Source: a virus
Virus record (IMG/VR): IMGVR_UViG_3300046692_000138
Span: 1-29,556 of that record
Direction: 5' to 3' (one strand)
DNA length: 29,556 nucleotides
A program made the position numbers and the translations under genes. The notes under the pieces were generated by a model. The model worked only from the letters and a program-made list of their open reading frames with translations. It was not told the DNA's origin and ran no database searches. Of this stretch, positions 16,564 to 24,735 are shown piece by piece. How positions within the stretch are numbered: position 1 is the stretch's first letter; every line of letters starts with the position of its first letter.

Positions 16564-19500
16564 ATGGATATCGCATCGCTCGGCATCAGCATTGACACGT
16601 CGGACGTTGCGAAGGCATCCACTGACCTCGACAAGTTGGTCGATGTGGGGGAGAAGGCCGAGAAAGCGGCGGATGGTGTCTCAACCGGCTTCAAGAAGAC
16701 CGCCGATGCGGCTGACAAACTGGCCGAGGCCGAAACCCGGGCCGCGCAGGCGACAGCAGATGCCAAGGCGCGCTTGCTGGAGACGGCGAACACCTCGCTC
16801 AAAAACAGCGAGTACTACCAGCGGCTGACCAATAGCGTGGCCAGCACTGCCAGCGCGATGGATGTCAGCCGCGATTCCACGGCAAGCCTGCTCGCGTTGC
16901 AGAAGCGCATGCAGGCCGAGTCCGATGCGCTGGTCGGCACGACGCAGAACAGCGCCAAGGCAGCCAAGGATGCAGCGGCGGCCACGGGTGTTCAGGCCGA
17001 GGGGCTGGATAAGCTCCTCAACAAGCTCAACCCAGCCAGGAAGGCGCAGGCTGATCTGAATGACGATCTCAAGACGCTCAGCGCAGGATTCAAGGCCGGA
17101 AAGATCGACCTTGAGCAGTACACAGCAGAGGTTGGGAAGGTCAATGCCAAGATCCAAACGCTAAACGGTAACGGATCAGCCTTCGACAAGCTGAATCTTG
17201 GAACCCGACAAGCCCAGGAAAACGTTAGTCAGCTCGCGAATGCAATCGCTACGGGCGACTTGAACAGCGGTGCTCGCGCTATCGCTCAGGTAGGTGCGGG
17301 CGCAGGCTCCTCCGCCATACAGCTTGGCAAAATGCTTCTGCCGGCCGCCGCCTTGGTCGCCGTACTTGGTTCTATCGCTCACGCATTTATCGATGCTGAG
17401 AGAGAGTCGTCTGCGTTCAACAAGGCGATTTTCGCTGGTGGCAACATTGCCGGGGTCTCATCACAACAGCTCCAGCAGATCGCCAAGGAAGCTGGAGACG
17501 TCACGCACAACTTCGCCGGCGCGAAGGATGCAGCGCTTGCTCTGGCCAGCAGCGGGAAGGTGACCCAGAGCCAACTGTTGAGCCTGACAGCAGCCGCAGC
17601 GGCAATCTCAACGCTGACCGGCAAGGGCGCTAACGAAGTAGCGACCTCTCTCGCTGGTCTTGGCTCTTCTGCATCTGAAGCGGCTGCGAAAATCAGCGAG
17701 CAGTACGGTTTGATCACATCAGACCAGTACCTAGCGATCAAGGCCGTTGAGGATAACGGCGACGCTCAGAAGGCCCTGGACGCCCTCAGTGAGGATCTAA
17801 ACCAGAATGCTCAGGAGCGGCTGAAGCAATACCGTGCATCGCTCTCTGACATAGAACTTGGTTGGGACGACATCAAGAACAGCATCACCCGCGCATACGC
17901 GGCGGTGAAATCCGAGGTGTTCCCTGATCTGGCCAAGCAGATCGAGATCGTTCAGCGCGTCCTGGACACTCGCAAGGCAGGTGGCGTGGCCGGCGCGCTC
18001 TCGAACGGCTTGAGCAGCCTAAACAGTGCGCTCGGGCTGGATGACGGCGACAACGACGATTCAACCGCGGCGCTGGAAAAGAAACTTGCCAGCCTGAAGA
18101 CTAGGCAGAAGGCTAGCCAGGACGCAGCTTCTGCCACCGGAGAAGAAAACGCTGCCAACAAGGAGTTGATCGCTGTTCAGAGGGATCTGGATCGTCAGCT
18201 TGATAACGTGAATCCGCTCGCGAAGCGCGAAGCCGCGATCAAGAAGCTTAACGATCAATTCACCCAGCTATATCAGGACGCCGCGAAGACGGGCCAAAAG
18301 TCTCCGCTTCTTTCTGGCGTGGACTTCGACGGCAAAGCTTTCTCCGGCGGTGCCTATGACAAACTTCTGGCTGGCATAAACACCAAAAACAAAGACGCAA
18401 AAGGCCCGGCCAATCAACTGAACCTGACCGGGTTCAACGACGCTCAGAACAACCTCAAGTCCATCACAGGCTATTACCAGAACCTCGAAAAGGAGCTGGA
18501 CTCAGCGCAAAAGGCCGGGCTGGTCTCGGCGGAGTCGTACAGCAGCCAGCGCGTCGCGATCGTTGAGCAGGAGAAGGGCGACCTCACCGCAGCCTACGAG
18601 GCTGAAATCGCCGCCCTGCAAGCGGTGCGAGACAAGTCGTCGACCACGGGCGAACAGCGCATCCAGCTTGACCAAAAGATTGCCGATGCGCACTCGAGTA
18701 TGGTCAAGGCGCAGAAAGACGCTGACAGCCAACTGGAGGTTCTGGCCAACAACGAAACAGGCCGGATCGACAAGCAGACCCGCTCGATCGATCAGTATGT
18801 ACAGGCGCTGGATCAGCAACAGAAGGCGCTTGAACTTGCCGGGCAGCGCGCGGTGCTGGGCGTGGGCCGCGGTGACAGGCAGAACGCACTCGATGGCCAA
18901 CTGAACAGCCAGCAAGACCGGTTTGCTCAGCAAGCGCTCGACCTGGCAAACCAGAAGTCCGACCCGTCCCGGAACATGTCGGATGAGGAGTTCGCCAAAA
19001 AGTCCCAGGCTCTTGCCGACGCCAACAAAAAGGCAACCGACCAGATCCGGCAGAACTACGCGGATGTGCAGACCGCCCAGGGCGACTGGACTAACGGAGC
19101 AACCTCCGCTTGGGAAAACTACCTCGACAGCGCCAAGGATGTGGCCGGGCAAACCAAAACACTGTTCACCAATGCCTTTTCCAACATGGAAGATGCAGTG
19201 GCGAACTTCGCTCTCACCGGCAAGCTGTCGTTTTCGGATTTCACAAAATCGGTCATTTCTGATCTTGCTCGAATCGCCACAAGACAGGCGACTTCCGGGG
19301 TGCTCAGTACCCTGTTCGGAATCGGTGCGACGGCTGCAGGCTCATACTCCGGCGGGGCTTCTACTGGCTCTGGCGCAAGTTCCGGCTTCGACTACAGCCT
19401 GGGTTCGGCATCCTCTGGACTTTCCTATGGTGGCGGTCGCGCCACTGGCGGCAATGTTGCGCCGAACTCGCTGTATCAGGTCAATGAAGTGGGTCCTGAG

Positions 19501-19794
19501 TTGTTCAATCAGGGCGGTAAGTCCTACCTGATGACCGGAGCGAATGGAGGCAGCGTCACTCCGCTGGGCTCTGGTGCGGCCTCGGTTTCTGCTGGTGCCG
19601 GCGGATCTTCGCCGATTGCGGTCTCGATCCAAATCAGCGGCGATGGCACGTCTCAGGTAAGCAGCAATACCTCCGGCATGGAGCAGTTCGGCGCCGAGAT
19701 TGGGCGATTTGTCGAGGCTCGCTACAAGCAACTGGAAGCGAAGTCGCTTGGCCCGCAAGGGAATATTCGTAAAGCCATCAATGGGAGGGCGTAA
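16564..19794 (+). CDS. H: Tail tape measure protein (lambda H-like)
   Basis: The 1076-residue protein is the longest complete gene here, and its length sets tail length. It has long Ala/Gln/Lys-rich helices, a hydrophobic segment at about residues 249-272 (KMLLPAAALVAVLGSIAHAF), many coiled-coil stretches (about 430-830), and a lambda-H-like C-terminal domain at about 845-930 (AWENYLDSAKDVAGQTKTLF and FSDFTKSVISDLARIATRQA). A Gly/Ser-rich section follows, and the protein ends in a short helix with RKAINGRA. Its TAA shares one base with the ATG of M (TAATG at 19792). No peptidoglycan hydrolase domain is seen. Confidence 0.92.
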   Translation: MDIASLGISIDTSDVAKASTDLDKLVDVGEKAEKAADGVSTGFKKTADAADKLAEAETRAAQATADAKARLLETANTSLKNSEYYQRLTNSVASTASAMDVSRDSTASLLALQKRMQAESDALVGTTQNSAKAAKDAAAATGVQAEGLDKLLNKLNPARKAQADLNDDLKTLSAGFKAGKIDLEQYTAEVGKVNAKIQTLNGNGSAFDKLNLGTRQAQENVSQLANAIATGDLNSGARAIAQVGAGAGSSAIQLGKMLLPAAALVAVLGSIAHAFIDAERESSAFNKAIFAGGNIAGVSSQQLQQIAKEAGDVTHNFAGAKDAALALASSGKVTQSQLLSLTAAAAAISTLTGKGANEVATSLAGLGSSASEAAAKISEQYGLITSDQYLAIKAVEDNGDAQKALDALSEDLNQNAQERLKQYRASLSDIELGWDDIKNSITRAYAAVKSEVFPDLAKQIEIVQRVLDTRKAGGVAGALSNGLSSLNSALGLDDGDNDDSTAALEKKLASLKTRQKASQDAASATGEENAANKELIAVQRDLDRQLDNVNPLAKREAAIKKLNDQFTQLYQDAAKTGQKSPLLSGVDFDGKAFSGGAYDKLLAGINTKNKDAKGPANQLNLTGFNDAQNNLKSITGYYQNLEKELDSAQKAGLVSAESYSSQRVAIVEQEKGDLTAAYEAEIAALQAVRDKSSTTGEQRIQLDQKIADAHSSMVKAQKDADSQLEVLANNETGRIDKQTRSIDQYVQALDQQQKALELAGQRAVLGVGRGDRQNALDGQLNSQQDRFAQQALDLANQKSDPSRNMSDEEFAKKSQALADANKKATDQIRQNYADVQTAQGDWTNGATSAWENYLDSAKDVAGQTKTLFTNAFSNMEDAVANFALTGKLSFSDFTKSVISDLARIATRQATSGVLSTLFGIGATAAGSYSGGASTGSGASSGFDYSLGSASSGLSYGGGRATGGNVAPNSLYQVNEVGPELFNQGGKSYLMTGANGGSVTPLGSGAASVSAGAGGSSPIAVSIQISGDGTSQVSSNTSGMEQFGAEIGRFVEARYKQLEAKSLGPQGNIRKAINGRA

Positions 19795-20132
19795 TGGCTG
19801 ACACATTCACCTGGCGCCCTAACAAGTCGGCGCCGGGCACATTCACGGAGCGCATCCGTTCCGCCCAGTTCGGTCAAGGCTACAAGCAGCGCGCGGCGGA
19901 CGGGATCAATAACGAAACCCAGTCATGGAACTTGACGTTTACCGGCGAGAAGGCGCGGATCGCCGCGATTCTCGCATTTCTTCGCGGCCAGAAGGGATAC
20001 AAGGCTTTCATCTGGGCTACGCCATTCGACGGCCCCCTCTATTTCACTTGTGACACCTTTGCCCCTACGGATCTGGGCGGCAAGGCGTGGTCGCTGACTG
20101 CCACGTTCGAACAGACCTACCAGGTGAGCTGA
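19794..20132 (+). CDS. M: Minor tail protein M
   Basis: This 112-residue protein of the lambda M family caps the tape-measure end of the initiator. Typical features are the early F-T-W-R-P and the FGQGYKQRAADGIN loop, followed by WNLTFTGEKARIAAI and the final TFEQTYQV strand. It overlaps the tape measure and L genes by one base each. Confidence 0.88.
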   Translation: MADTFTWRPNKSAPGTFTERIRSAQFGQGYKQRAADGINNETQSWNLTFTGEKARIAAILAFLRGQKGYKAFIWATPFDGPLYFTCDTFAPTDLGGKAWSLTATFEQTYQVS

Positions 20133-20830
20133 TGGCCGAGAGCATTTATGAAGATGTCCAGAAGCTTGAGGCCGGTCAGTACGTTGAACTGTTCGAGCTG
20201 GACCTGAGCGCGATCGCCGGCGACATCTACTACTTCCACGGTTACACGAAGCTTGGCGCCATCACTTGGCAGGGCGTTGAGTACTCGCCGTGGCCGATCA
20301 AGGTCGACGGTATGGGCATGACCGGGGAAGGGCAGCAGAGCAACCCGACACTTGCCGTAGGCAACGTCACCGGATTCATCACCGCACTGTGTGCGACGTA
20401 TCAGGACCTGGTCGACGCGAAGGTTGTTCGCCACCGGACGCTGGGACGCTACCTCGATGCTGTCAACTTCCCAGAGGGAAACCCTGAAGCGAATCCGGAC
20501 GAGCATTTCACGGATGACGTCTACACCATCGATCAGAAGCAAGCGGCGGACGCGTCGAACACGACGTTCGTTCTCAAGTCTCCGCTGATTGCGACCGATC
20601 GCAAGCTGCCAGGGCGCCAGATCGTTGCCAACTGCTGCCAGTGGTTGGTGATCGGCGGATACCGGGGCGCCTACTGCGGCTACACAGGTTCGGCCTACTT
20701 CACAGACAAGGACGTTCCGACTGACGACCCTGCCAAGGACATGTGCTCCGGCACGCTCCTTGGCTGCAAGCTGCGCTTTGGCGCGAACAACCCGCTCCGC
20801 TACGGCTCATACCCGAGCGCAGGGTACTGA
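20132..20830 (+). CDS. L: Minor tail protein L
   Basis: The 232-residue protein matches lambda L. ATG 20132 shares its A with the TGA of M. The N half includes YYFHGYTKLGAITWQGVEYSP; the C half holds a Cys set (NCCQW, AYCGYTG, DMCSG, GCKLRFG) of the kind that binds an iron-sulfur cluster in lambda L. It is part of the tail tip complex with I and J. Length and motifs are normal. Confidence 0.9.
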   Translation: MAESIYEDVQKLEAGQYVELFELDLSAIAGDIYYFHGYTKLGAITWQGVEYSPWPIKVDGMGMTGEGQQSNPTLAVGNVTGFITALCATYQDLVDAKVVRHRTLGRYLDAVNFPEGNPEANPDEHFTDDVYTIDQKQAADASNTTFVLKSPLIATDRKLPGRQIVANCCQWLVIGGYRGAYCGYTGSAYFTDKDVPTDDPAKDMCSGTLLGCKLRFGANNPLRYGSYPSAGY

Positions 20831-20838
20831 GGTGGTGG

Positions 20839-21606
20839 ATGAGGCTTTCGAAGGACACCGTCAAAGCGATCTATGACCACGCCCGGGCTTCGTCTCCCCA
20901 AGAGTGTTGCGGATTAATCATTCGCTCCGGCAGGGCGAACAAATATGTCCCGACCGCAAACTCCGCCGAGAAGCCGGAAGACGATTTCAAGATCAGCGCT
21001 GAATCATGGGCGCTTGCCGAAGACCAGGGCGAGATCATCGCCATCGTGCACAGCCATCCCGGACAGTCAGCGCGGCTCAGTCATGCAGATCGAGTATCGA
21101 TGGAAGGAACTGGACTGCCTTGGCTGATCGTTGAAGTGCGTGGGGGTGAGCCGGTCAGCCATCTAATACATGAGCCGAGTGGCTATCAGGCGCCACTGAT
21201 TGGGCGTCCATTCAGGCACGGGGTTCTCGACTGCTACTCACTGGTGCGCGATTACTACCAGCGCGAGATGGGCATCACCCTGCCGGAATACGACCGCGAA
21301 GATGGGTGGTGGAACGAAGGGAAGGACCTTTACACCGACAACTTCGAAGGTGCTGGCTTCGTCCAGGTCGGCCCGGCAGACCTGCATCAAGGCGATTTGA
21401 TCCTGATGCAGGTTCGCTCGCCAGTCCCGAATCACGCAGGCATCTACCTTGCGGATGGCATGCTCAAAACCGAGCCGGATCATCATCCGGTGCCGGGTTC
21501 GATCCTGCATCACCTGTACGGCCGTGACTCTAAACGTGATGTGTACGGCGGGTATTGGACCGAAGCAACACGCCTGACCCTCAGGCACAAAGACGCGAAA
21601 CAGTGA
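20839..21606 (+). CDS. K: Tail assembly protein K (JAMM plus NlpC/P60)
   Basis: The 255-residue protein has two enzyme domains. Residues 1-120 form a JAMM/MPN metallo-isopeptidase fold with E22 and H71-S-H73-P, then S81 and D84, all ligands present. Residues 125-250 form an NlpC/P60 fold with C132 (GVLDCYSLVRDYY) and H199 (NHAGIYL). In lambda-like phages K acts during tail tip assembly and may nick peptidoglycan at entry. ATG 20839 is used because GAGGTGG precedes it. In lambda the next gene, I, follows almost at once; here an island of 2.5 kb intervenes. Confidence 0.9.
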   Translation: MRLSKDTVKAIYDHARASSPQECCGLIIRSGRANKYVPTANSAEKPEDDFKISAESWALAEDQGEIIAIVHSHPGQSARLSHADRVSMEGTGLPWLIVEVRGGEPVSHLIHEPSGYQAPLIGRPFRHGVLDCYSLVRDYYQREMGITLPEYDREDGWWNEGKDLYTDNFEGAGFVQVGPADLHQGDLILMQVRSPVPNHAGIYLADGMLKTEPDHHPVPGSILHHLYGRDSKRDVYGGYWTEATRLTLRHKDAKQ

Positions 21607-21629
21607 GCGGCTCTGCCGCGGGAGCATCC

Positions 21630-21848
21630 ATGAATCATCAGCAGGTAGAGCAACTTGAGAAGCGGTTAACCTGCATCGAAAATCTTCTGACGCACGTTCT
21701 TCACTGCTTGCTGGGCGCCGAGCGAAGTAGGATCGAAATTTCTACAGAGCAGCGATCGGATCGAGATGCGCTGCTAGAAACGGCGATAAGAGGCATAACG
21801 ACAAGTAGGCCGCTCAGCCCAGATAGAGGCGGTAAATATCCTTCTTGA
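21630..21848 (+). CDS. Small coiled-coil protein (island gene 1)
   Basis: The 72-residue product starts at ATG 21630, with GGGAG 5 bases upstream. It opens with a heptad-like helix (MNHQQVEQLEKRLTCIENLL) and is polar throughout. The last dozen residues are encoded where the convergent protease gene overlaps by 35 bases. It is probably translated from the tail transcript because it follows K by 23 bases. Its function is unknown. Confidence 0.6.
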   Translation: MNHQQVEQLEKRLTCIENLLTHVLHCLLGAERSRIEISTEQRSDRDALLETAIRGITTSRPLSPDRGGKYPS

Positions 21849-22290
21849 AGTCCATTATCAGCACGCCATGTTGTATAACATCCATGCCTATCAGAAAGTG
21901 CTGAGTTGCCGGACTATTACGTAACGAAGCCGAATACACACCGGTCTCTATTTGGACGGCTGCCTCAGGAAAAAATACATGACCCAAGTGCAAACCTCCT
22001 TGGGTTTCACCCGCCGTCGCGCCGTGAGTCAGGGCGGAAGCTACGTACGGCCAGCCAATCGCGCTGATCACATCAGGTGGCGCATAACAGCTGTCCGCTC
22101 CTGTATCGAGCAGTGCGTACACGGGTTCAATGCCTTGAGGTGCGCGCAAGTTGGTGTGGTGGTTGGGATCATGCCGTAACACAACCAGTATTACCGGGCG
22201 GCCTGGTGGGCGTGGCGAGACCTCGCCTGCGTTGTTCATAAATTTTATTGGGGCGAATTTCAACCCCACGGGAGCCGATACATCACTCAC
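21814..22290 (-). CDS. Retropepsin-like aspartic protease (island gene 2)
   Basis: The 158-residue protein has the active-site motif ALLDTGADS (D62-T63-G64-A65) followed by a hydrophobic flap region, and near the C end HFLIGMDVIQHGVLIMDF (residues 131-148), the usual second half of a single-lobe retropepsin. Such proteases work as homodimers. There is no signal peptide or membrane span. It starts at GTG 22290 with AGGAGG about 5 bases upstream, on the minus strand, with its own strong promoter at 22458-22486. The substrate is unknown: a phage tail protein or a host protein are both possible. Confidence 0.8.
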   Translation of the reverse strand: MSDVSAPVGLKFAPIKFMNNAGEVSPRPPGRPVILVVLRHDPNHHTNLRAPQGIEPVYALLDTGADSCYAPPDVISAIGWPYVASALTHGATAGETQGGLHLGHVFFPEAAVQIETGVYSASLRNSPATQHFLIGMDVIQHGVLIMDFKKDIYRLYLG

Positions 22291-22333
22291 AATGACCTCC
22301 TAGGTCACATTGCCCCGGTCCATGGGCTTGCAG

Positions 22334-22358
22334 CCAACGGACCGAGGCGGTTCGTTGG
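22334..22358 (-). other. Hairpin in the leader of the protease gene
   Basis: CCAACGGACC (22334-22343) and GGTTCGTTGG (22349-22358) form a 10-pair stem with one G-T wobble and a 5-base loop, inside the roughly 160-base leader of the minus-strand protease transcript. No T run follows in either direction. Confidence 0.5.
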
Positions 22359-22431
22359 AGGCGAAAAGCTACTACGCCGTGTATCGGATCTGTTACTGAT
22401 CGTTTGTCCAGCGCTGGATGAGCAGACAGCC

Positions 22432-22486
22432 TTGCCGATCTCAAAGGAAAGAATATGATAATGGCCAGCTGACATTGGCCAGTCAA
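22432..22486. promoter_or_regulatory. Divergent promoters with overlapping -10 boxes
   Basis: Plus strand: TTGCCG (22432-22437), 16 bases, TATGAT (22454-22459), pointing to the DUF4236 gene. Minus strand: TTGACT (22486-22481), 17 bases, CATTAT (22463-22458), pointing to the protease gene. The two -10 boxes share bases, so one polymerase should exclude the other. TGGCCAG occurs twice (22462-22468 and 22476-22482), an operator-like arrangement between the minus-strand boxes. Confidence 0.6.
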
Positions 22487-22498
22487 AGGACATGAACT

Positions 22499-22795
22499 AT
22501 GGCACTGCGCATCCGCAAATCGTTCAAGATCGCTCCTGGCATCCGCCTGAATGTCAGCAAAACCGGACTTAGCACTTCGGTAGGCGGAAAGGGCTTCACG
22601 ACTAATCTCAGCAAAAAAGGTGCGCGCGTTACCGCGGGGATACCAGGAACAGGTATTTCGACCTCAAAGCTCTACAAAACCCAAACGCCGCGGAACGTGA
22701 AGGTTTCGGTACCAGCTTCAAAGCCAGGCTTCGGGTCCTATTTCGTGATGGCTTTAATCACCATAGGTGTGCTCTGGACCATATTTCATAAGTGA
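22499..22795 (+). CDS. DUF4236 protein with C-terminal membrane span (island gene 3)
   Basis: The 98-residue protein opens with the DUF4236 block (residues 1-57): RIRKSFKIAPGIRLNVSKTG, then STSVGGKG, followed by repeats ending in AGIPGTGISTS. A basic linker follows, then a membrane span at about residues 79-96 (SYFVMALITIGVLWTIF). DUF4236 occurs in bacteria and mobile elements; its function is unknown. It has its own promoter upstream and is followed after 99 bases by the secreted peptide gene. Confidence 0.8.
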   Translation: MALRIRKSFKIAPGIRLNVSKTGLSTSVGGKGFTTNLSKKGARVTAGIPGTGISTSKLYKTQTPRNVKVSVPASKPGFGSYFVMALITIGVLWTIFHK

Positions 22796-23086: not shown

Positions 23087-23557
23087 CTAACGAAGACTGC
23101 GACGCGTCGGTTTTATCCTCGCGCGGAATTTAAGCAAATCGTCTACCTGTGAGGAGGCTCGCAGCCATGCAATCTCGAATCCCAATGCAGGGATCGCAGC
23201 GAACATACCGACTACAAAGGCCACGCGCGTCGACCCCATCCCTGGTGGCAATATCAAAAGCAATACTATGGTCGCGATGCCCACTACCATGAAGAGGATC
23301 AGCATCGCGTAGCTGAAGGCGATCCGTCTGTGTATGGCGACGCTGTCAAATCTAAGAGCCTTCACCCTTTTGAGGCGTTTTAGCTTCAAGGACTTGTACG
23401 CTGTTTGAATGCGTCCCTTCGTCCGCCCCATCAGCGCCCGGAAGCCTATTGTTGCCCTTCGATAAAGTGATGGAAGGGCGGCGGCCAGCAAAATACCCAT
23501 GATGGTGGAAACTGCGTTACTGAGCCACCACTGAGGGTTAGCTGCCCACTCTTCCAT
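23087..23557 (-). CDS. Membrane protein of unknown function (island gene 5)
   Basis: The 156-residue minus-strand protein has hydrophobic segments at about residues 11-30 (WLSNAVSTIMGILLAAALPS), 80-104 (FSYAMLILFMVVGIATIVLLLI) and 110-129 (RVAFVVGMFAAIPALGFEIA), with a strongly basic loop between the first two (about residues 33-70) and a basic C terminus. ATG 23557 has GGGGA about 7 bases upstream. It could be a superinfection-exclusion membrane protein, but I see no family signature. Confidence 0.6.
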   Translation of the reverse strand: MEEWAANPQWWLSNAVSTIMGILLAAALPSLYRRATIGFRALMGRTKGRIQTAYKSLKLKRLKRVKALRFDSVAIHRRIAFSYAMLILFMVVGIATIVLLLILPPGMGSTRVAFVVGMFAAIPALGFEIAWLRASSQVDDLLKFRARIKPTRRSLR

Positions 23558-24108: not shown

Positions 24109-24735
24109 ATGTCCGAACGAATCCGCACCATCCGACTTCATGGCGAACTGGGCAAAAAATTTGGGAAAGAGCACTTTTTGGCCGTTAAATCTGCAGCTGA
24201 GGCCGTTCGGGCGCTCGGCGTTCTCTTCAAGGGCTTCAACCAATTTCTGGTTGAATCAAAAGCCAGGGGCTTAGCATTCGCCGTGTTCTACGGCAAACGC
24301 AATTTAAGCGAGGAGCAGCTAGGAGATCCGCCAAGTCACAATGAAATCCGGATCGCACCGGTAGTGCAAGGCAGCAAAAACGGCGGGGGGCTGCAAACCG
24401 TCATCGGGGTTGTGCTGATTGCTGTTGCGAGCTACTTCTCCGGAGGACTAGCTGGTGGAGGCGCGGCCGGAAGCGGATTATTTGCGGGTAGTGCTGCCTG
24501 GGGAGCAGTAGGGGCCGTGGGGATATCATTGGCCTTGGGTGGCGTAGCCCAAATGATTACCGGCACGCAAACCGGAATTGATAGCACCGAGGCGGCTGAT
24601 AATCGTCCCAGCTACAACTTCTCAGGCATCAAAAACACCGTCACCCAAGGCAACCCGGTACCGCTGTGCTACGGCGAGATGACCGTGGGTTCCGCCATGA
24701 TTTCACTGGGCATCGTCGCCGAAGACGAACAGTAA
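24109..24735 (+). CDS. I: Tail assembly protein I
   Basis: The 208-residue protein matches lambda I: an N-terminal ubiquitin-like section (IRTIRLHGELGKKFGKEHFL), a Gly/Ala-rich hydrophobic middle at about residues 105-160 (TVIGVVLIAVASYFSGGLAG) and the conserved end with NTVTQGNPVPLCYGEMTVGS. It acts with K, L and J in building the tail tip. In lambda it directly follows K; here it is displaced by the island and has a fresh ribosome site after a terminator. J starts 10 bases later. Confidence 0.88.
   Translation: MSERIRTIRLHGELGKKFGKEHFLAVKSAAEAVRALGVLFKGFNQFLVESKARGLAFAVFYGKRNLSEEQLGDPPSHNEIRIAPVVQGSKNGGGLQTVIGVVLIAVASYFSGGLAGGGAAGSGLFAGSAAWGAVGAVGISLALGGVAQMITGTQTGIDSTEAADNRPSYNFSGIKNTVTQGNPVPLCYGEMTVGSAMISLGIVAEDEQ

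Follow-up and report, generated by a model that had tools for sequence, protein, structure and literature searches.

The window analysed here, meaning the whole 29,556-base stretch of virus record IMGVR_UViG_3300046692_000138, covers the late region of a lambda-like siphophage, and its nearest annotated phage DNA is mostly that of Pseudomonas phages (127 of the 133 records matching the window). Among the tail genes, and on the strand opposite to them, lies a gene for a small retropepsin-like aspartic protease. Sequence comparison indicates that this gene very probably belongs to a recurring antisense cassette, which is found in varied late-gene slots, is antisense to the late genes wherever this can be scored, and in most cases includes a conserved upstream element and a late-strand gene that converges on the protease gene and overlaps it. 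The parts of the cassette in the window are:

21814..22290, minus strand: retropepsin-like protein, 158 amino acids, GTG start, DTG at residues 62-64, LIGM at residues 133-136
21630..21848, plus strand: convergent partner open reading frame (ORF) of type A, 72 amino acids, starting 24 nucleotides past gene K
21814..21848, both strands: 35-nucleotide antisense overlap of the 3' ends of the protease and partner genes
22294..22306, minus strand: leader hairpin 2, GACCT-AGG-AGGTC, enclosing the ribosome-binding site
22313..22347, minus strand: leader hairpin 1, CCTCGGTCC...GGACCGGGG
about 22355..22430 (outer limits approximate), minus strand: conserved bipartite promoter-like element
22368-22398, minus strand: core of this element, CAGTAAC-N15-CGTAGTAGC

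The initial annotation had described the protease ORF as a single-lobe aspartic protease with an intact DTGA motif (residues 62-65) and a matching IGMDVIQHG block, and the ORF is present as described, with 158 residues, a single domain and both motifs. More fully, the protein contains DTGAD at residues 62-66, LIGMDVI at 133-139 and IGMDVIQHG near the C-terminus, DTG occurs once in the chain, and the ribosome site AGGAGGT precedes the GTG start. By analogy, a retropepsin domain with such an intact DTG would work as a homodimer. The proposed aspartic protease fold was borne out by structure prediction. The AlphaFold2 single-chain model had a predicted local distance difference test score (pLDDT) of 84.2 and a predicted template modelling score of 0.79, and its top fold match was the Rickettsia conorii retropepsin 5c9f (Foldseek E 3.4e-5; VIA Z 10.6, root mean square deviation 2.9 over 119 residues, about 15% identity). 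Further matches were the proteases of equine infectious anaemia virus (Z 10.5) and human immunodeficiency virus 1 (10.2), Ddi1 (10.2) and feline immunodeficiency virus protease. In the putative flap region the single chain is modelled as strands 82-89 and 95-107, with a mean pLDDT of 75 for residues 91-100. A retropepsin fold of the window protein is almost certain on this model, and a chance ORF was ruled out by homology and fold.

In profile searches the window protein stayed below the Pfam cut-offs (PF13650, 18.4 bits against 24.3; PF13975, 18.3 against 28.2); the same two families match 14 and 13, respectively, of 19 family members at E ≤ 0.1 (best 5.8e-7). With a profile built from 19 relatives, yeast Ddi1 was the best sequence-profile match (E = 0.003). 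The window protein had no match in NCBIfam or PADLOC, nor in PHROGs at E ≤ 0.1; up to an E of 1, PHROGs gave weak matches, to a portal protein at 0.59 for the window protein and with a best value of 0.036 among the relatives. The PADLOC models PDC-M08B (weak in 5 of the 19 relatives, best E 0.003) and PDC-M14B (in 1) were not used as evidence, and 'PDC-M08' has no occurrence in the open-access literature searched. Among the predicted viral structures that match the fold are entries from tailed phages with the label aspartic or aspartyl protease, so that finding a retropepsin in a phage is no novelty as such. Conservation suggests that the protein is probably proteolytically competent. D62, to which the initial annotation had drawn attention, is conserved: DTG is kept in all 34 distinct relatives, as is a hydrophobic-hydrophobic-Gly motif in the C-terminal half (LIGM, VFGM, ILGM and the like). 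Residues D62-D66 are invariant across a 19-row alignment, and dN/dS (the ratio of nonsynonymous to synonymous substitution rates) is 0.06-0.17 in unsaturated protease pairs.

The relatives were obtained from scans of viral contigs and plasmid records, which gave 59 loci, unthinned by organism, with 34 proteins distinct in their last 120 residues. Their identity to the window protein ranges from 26 to 64% over the 19-row alignment. For the direct relative WP_023330226.1 from Enterobacter (29% identity) the record already gives the name 'retropepsin-like aspartic protease', and the open-access literature searched yielded no function, partner or context for it. Neither the window protein nor one Enterobacter relative had a match at E ≤ 0.01 in 50,697 phage records, some of which have such tails. 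With a single protein as query no match was found in genome contigs; a profile scan of them gave 3 loci, those from Nitrospirales and Methanoperedens being short matches. Class-wide, profile matches occurred in 7 of 369 genomes; that in the Pluralibacter genome itself was strong, and the other six were weak. One family, taken to be Pseudomonadaceae because its centre had by far the best OprF match, was represented by 248 genomes, in which the protease was not found at E ≤ 1e-6 in a scan without a positive control.

The protease gene lies antisense inside a lambda-like tail module, with L and K upstream and I downstream on the late strand, and a block of small genes separates K from I. The late-strand neighbours are:

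16564-19794, late strand: tape measure gene
19794-20132, late strand: gene M, assigned by position
20087-20830, late strand: gene L
20743..21606, plus strand: gene K, a minor tail protein with JAB and NlpC/P60 domains, the upstream late-strand neighbour
24109..24735, plus strand: gene I, lambda tail assembly protein I, the next core tail gene on the late strand

The K-I block also holds a DUF4236 protein on the late strand (22499-22795, plus) and a second antisense ORF of 156 amino acids (23087-23557, minus) with no confident family; in one relative locus (L013) a stretch 30% identical to this ORF lies beside the retropepsin gene on the same strand. A further second antisense gene, annotated as ATP-dependent Clp protease proteolytic subunit, is near the retropepsin gene in a plasmid record from Enterobacter that also has a P22-like capsid gene (L003, 11983-13584).

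The antisense placement noted initially was confirmed and recurs. The protease gene is antisense to every recognised late gene in 53 of the 59 loci and co-directional in none, the remaining 6 having no marker, so that the slot is established by comparison of loci. Gene K is the nearest 3'-side marker in 23 of the 59, and the insertion sites in relatives include K-I, M-L, the region past I, the neighbourhood of lysis or packaging genes, and a position upstream of the tape measure gene. From these sequences, the protease gene is one that changes its late-region slot while its orientation remains constant. To call it unusual within a phage tail module, as the initial annotation did, is fair and at the same time understates a recurring cassette; the overlapping convergent gene and the reverse-moron context described below had been overlooked.

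In nine further distinct relatives (L002, L005-L010, L014, L236) the protease gene has the same 35-nucleotide overlap as in the window. This length is shared by the window clade and others, 45 nucleotides are found in most of a second clade and 18 in the Enterobacter type, and overlaps of 33, 42 or 48 nucleotides are single cases. A second partner family, partner B (68-90 amino acids), is shown by its coding constraint to be a real gene: outside the overlap, in 36 pairs of 9 sequences, the ratio of nonsynonymous to synonymous polymorphism (pN/pS) was 0.23 in frame compared to 1.37 and 1.35 in the shifted frames. For partner A, the window type, the values were 0.46 in frame and 0.74 and 1.62 shifted (4 sequences, 6 pairs), and its reality as a gene appears less firm than that of partner B. 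When partner B alone was used as query, 19 loci were found and each of the 19 had a convergent retropepsin; 8 of them had supplied query rows, 1 was a duplicate and 10 were new, with the retropepsin adjoining in 10 of 10. The search with partner A gave 4 loci, each an already known protease locus. On a tree of the 34 proteases, with partner labels assigned from sequences and BLAST matches, partner B occurs in two clades with long branches between them and in row L236. Partner B of L226 in the second clade is 68-76% identical to that of four first-clade rows, the proteases being far less alike. It would thus seem that the partner has accompanied retropepsins in one exchange or more.

The initial annotation had also given the gene a promoter of its own. 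For this the conserved bipartite element is the better candidate: the sigma70-like site at 22486-22458 (minus strand) is weak and was left unused as the protease promoter, the count of such sites being near chance (3 on both strands of 21500-22700, with 1.0 expected, standard deviation 1.0). The element also makes expression apart from the tail genes, which had been proposed, likely. A terminator-like site at the protease 3' end was no better than chance. The core is unique in the window at up to 3 mismatches (0.10 expected), and a scan of viral contigs with spacers of 14-16 gave at least 120 stretches with at least 100 distinct matches. Among the matches listed, 72 had both flanking blocks, 13 the upstream block only and 15 neither. 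Those with both flanks were directed against every late marker in 65 cases and co-directional in none (7 had no markers), while of the 15 without flanks none was against late markers and one was with them. By a cruder count of ORF majority, 60 of 75 elements were antisense, 1 co-directional and 14 mixed. Because the spacer varies in sequence, and yet is 15 bases long in most rows among the 14-16 searched, the element is read as a candidate promoter; the 77 element rows had been pre-selected by core and flank patterns, and those columns are biased. The core was found in 7 of the 248 genomes of the family named above, once in each, five with the full element and two without, in 0 of 56 genomes of one genus, and in 1 of 369 genomes of the class sample, there without flanks. 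With so few genomes carrying it (7 of 248), the element does not look like a host-wide regulon.

By eye, the genes behind the element look unrelated, comprising an 82-88 amino acid protein, proteins of about 60-120 amino acids, and retropepsins. The first is a recurrent antisense cargo with the block SGIYRCxGCGxEITSNxxxxFPPQNxHQH (also seen as SGIYRC..CGDEITSN), found in L092, L095, L106, L117, L128, L142, L166, L181 and others; judging by its cysteines, it is perhaps a zinc ribbon. Another cargo family, W...WGV/WAV..., repeatedly adjoins a convergent small gene of its own (..YxLTIxxLF..; L112, L133, L136, L171, L179, L209). Cargo-specific partner pairs may be common among the genes of this element.

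Different cargo genes have a leader in common, which consists of the hairpin CCTCGGTCC..GGACCGGGG and the palindrome GACCTAGGAGGTC round the ribosome site. One or both hairpins were found behind 36 of 91 elements, the exact palindrome in 16. In an alignment of 15 leaders chosen from the 36, 97.6% of the cells pair and 3 cells in 2 pairs are compensatory, values reached by 2 and 24 of 500 shuffles, respectively. Of 200 shuffles of the window leader, only 2 folded at least as well as the leader itself. The alignment gives moderate support to a conserved secondary structure, and translational control by the leader is possible. Rfam gave nothing at gathering scores in the window, and one chance-level snoRNA match below them.

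In the Enterobacter-type relatives the upstream DNA is of another kind. That of the retropepsin gene in L020 matches 26 phage records, and its element shares 82-87% identity, across 62-88% of its length, with those of HK97, HK022 and ES18. In all six of the matching records that were examined (HK97, HK022, ES18, HK633, Oslo and SPN3UB) another small gene stands right behind the element, antisense to its neighbours. The products of five of the six were translated and contain no DTG, and the Oslo product is annotated as similar to that of ES18. In GenBank, HK97 has here a 'reverse moron product', on which an overlapping 'moron product' converges, and putative terminators; HK022 is arranged alike, with a 'moron gene product' behind the element, and in ES18 the gene is a 'possible moron', convergent with a forward moron. 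The known slot thus accommodates several cargos, the retropepsin among them. The window agrees with this in that K and I, which are adjacent in phi80, are separated, as by insertion of a moron, and in that an antisense gene of the late operon converges on an overlapping forward moron, as in the HK97/HK022-type layout. The HK97/HK022 upstream element is absent from the window, where the Pseudomonas-type element takes its place.

We tentatively propose that the protease and its late-strand partner form a cassette protecting the lysogen. The element would drive the protease in the lysogen, in which the late operon is silent, and the partner would be encoded by that operon; this part of the scheme is reasonably probable. 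We infer the timing of expression, and likewise the cleavage, its target and the antagonism. The protease would cut either some part of an incoming phage or a protein of the host on which phages depend, and the lysogen would be protected. On induction, late transcription would oppose the protease gene and yield the partner, which would block the protease and let the phage build its own virions. Such an interference protease, made in the lysogen and with a late antagonist, is tentatively favoured because the layout is comparable to two precedents. According to PMC7067206, an orientation antisense to the lytic genes and a promoter of their own are typical of accessory prophage loci. In phi80, according to PMC11364771, antisense taiEcA splits the late operon controlled by Q; its product is present in the lysogen and acts against other phages, and a counter-defence gene sits in the late operon (the Tai/Ati noncontiguous operon). 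A looser precedent is P. aeruginosa phage Fc02, where a gene of the lytic cycle has opposite to it an exclusion gene that is active in the lysogen (PMC9936078). Taken as a whole, the chain of steps may hold, at a strength that we would call suggestive.

Several observations weigh against the proposed cassette. Antisense ORFs of at least 45 amino acids end at 92 of 194 other genes in 13 control loci, and 14 of the 194 have an ORF with one of the exact overlap lengths seen. After this control a convergent ORF was dropped as evidence on its own, and since such ORFs are common at gene ends by chance, only homology and coding constraint were used for the partners. Partner A is known from 5 sequences, two of them nearly identical, with the weaker coding signal; the number of independent partner exchanges is small, and co-inheritance of genes overlapping at their 3' ends could by itself explain the pairing. 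Five loci (L012, L013, L015, L016, L073) have no partner of type A, B or Enterobacter type. Strict specificity is also opposed by the likeness of the Enterobacter-type partner to the forward gene of Salmonella phage SPN3UB, where the reverse gene encodes no retropepsin. Partner B gave no confident structure model (pLDDT 54), and for the partners examined Pfam gave nothing above its cut-offs and PADLOC nothing at all. In a plasmid record of Enterobacter asburiae (L004, 11300-11866) the protease is annotated without its N-terminal part, where the reading frame is broken, and this element can therefore do without the gene. Finally, the TaiEcA level is unchanged after mitomycin C and lowered only by overproduction of Q (PMC11364771), and therefore transcriptional switch-off is poorly supported even in phi80.

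The nearest rival is an ordinary lysogenic-conversion moron, in which the protease trims a surface or stress protein of the host to the benefit of the lysogen and the partner is an unrelated forward moron or a hitchhiker. RimB and APRc are reportedly bacterial retropepsins with roles in their hosts. The same is described for RloA of P. aeruginosa in PMC12239564, and the resemblance to the SPN3UB forward gene, with its protease-free reverse gene, also fits an incidental partner. It accounts less well for a retropepsin adjoining partner B at all 19 loci, of which 10 are new, or for a partner common to two distant protease clades, and we regard it as a possible explanation that is itself tentative. 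The antisense transcript, not the protein, could also be what matters, as an exclusion RNA running into the partner gene or K. A prophage RNA of this kind, STnc6030 in BTP1, is an antisense RNA with superinfection-exclusion activity (PMC7067206); the overlapping 3' ends would suit such a role. Conservation of amino acids between distant relatives, the low dN/dS of the protease and DTG in 34 of 34 make this very improbable.

A protease that processes a tail protein during virion assembly would agree with the position among tail genes and with K as the nearest 3' marker in 23 loci. This explanation was ruled out, apart from a marginal chance, by the antisense orientation wherever markers could be scored, by sites that vary to include lysis or packaging genes and positions upstream of the tape measure gene, and by rarity, the 50,697 phage records having no match even though some have such tails. 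A catalytically idle retropepsin fold serving only in binding would agree with the scores of the window protein below the Pfam cut-offs; with the catalytic triplet and the hydrophobic-hydrophobic-Gly motif each in 34 of 34 relatives, we consider it improbable.

The retropepsin fold, morons and reverse-moron pairs are known kinds. New, as far as the open-access literature seen allows us to say, are a protease as cargo of the slot, the linked partner families and the Pseudomonas-type element heading many antisense cargos; that literature contained no description of a phage retropepsin moron or of the element, and no paper with the phrase 'reverse moron'. On a wider and rather doubtful view, CAGTAAC-N15-CGTAGTAGC would be a dedicated promoter, not obviously of the sigma70 consensus type, and would serve a large and so far undescribed group of Pseudomonas-type prophage genes with dozens of antisense cargos, several having a recurring late-strand partner. 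These would be defence and antidote pairs that are on in the lysogen and cancelled late, and the retropepsin pair would be their proteolytic member, with a small late protein that inhibits the protease or is cut by it. If the proposed cassette is real, proteolysis joins the means by which prophages guard their hosts, and a built-in late antagonist could show how a retropepsin is restrained. The element offers a one-motif handle for collecting antisense prophage genes, some of them probably anti-phage, and as it is shared, the model of expression in the lysogen and shut-off late can be tested over different cargo genes.

Compared to phi80, the likeness is one of layout and of logic, and homology is not claimed. 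TaiEcA is a 26.1-kDa protein acting on tail assembly, the word 'protease' is absent from the main text of PMC11364771, and the Tai/Ati ORFs were not located within the 30,000 of 46,150 phi80 bases examined. With APRc (RC1339 of R. conorii), RloA, RimB and Ddi1 the window protein has in common that each chain consists of one retropepsin domain and carries DTG once. A signal peptide is described for RloA and a link to surface proteins for APRc, whereas the window protein is encoded by a phage. HK97 (gp23/gp22) and HK022 (srb/gp22) are similar in having an antisense reverse gene, in their I-J interval, and a convergent, overlapping forward moron, although their reverse products, of 86 and 73 amino acids, have no DTG, unlike those of the retropepsin cassettes. 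Their upstream element is common to the Enterobacter-type retropepsin cassettes, while the window has a different, Pseudomonas-type element of its own.
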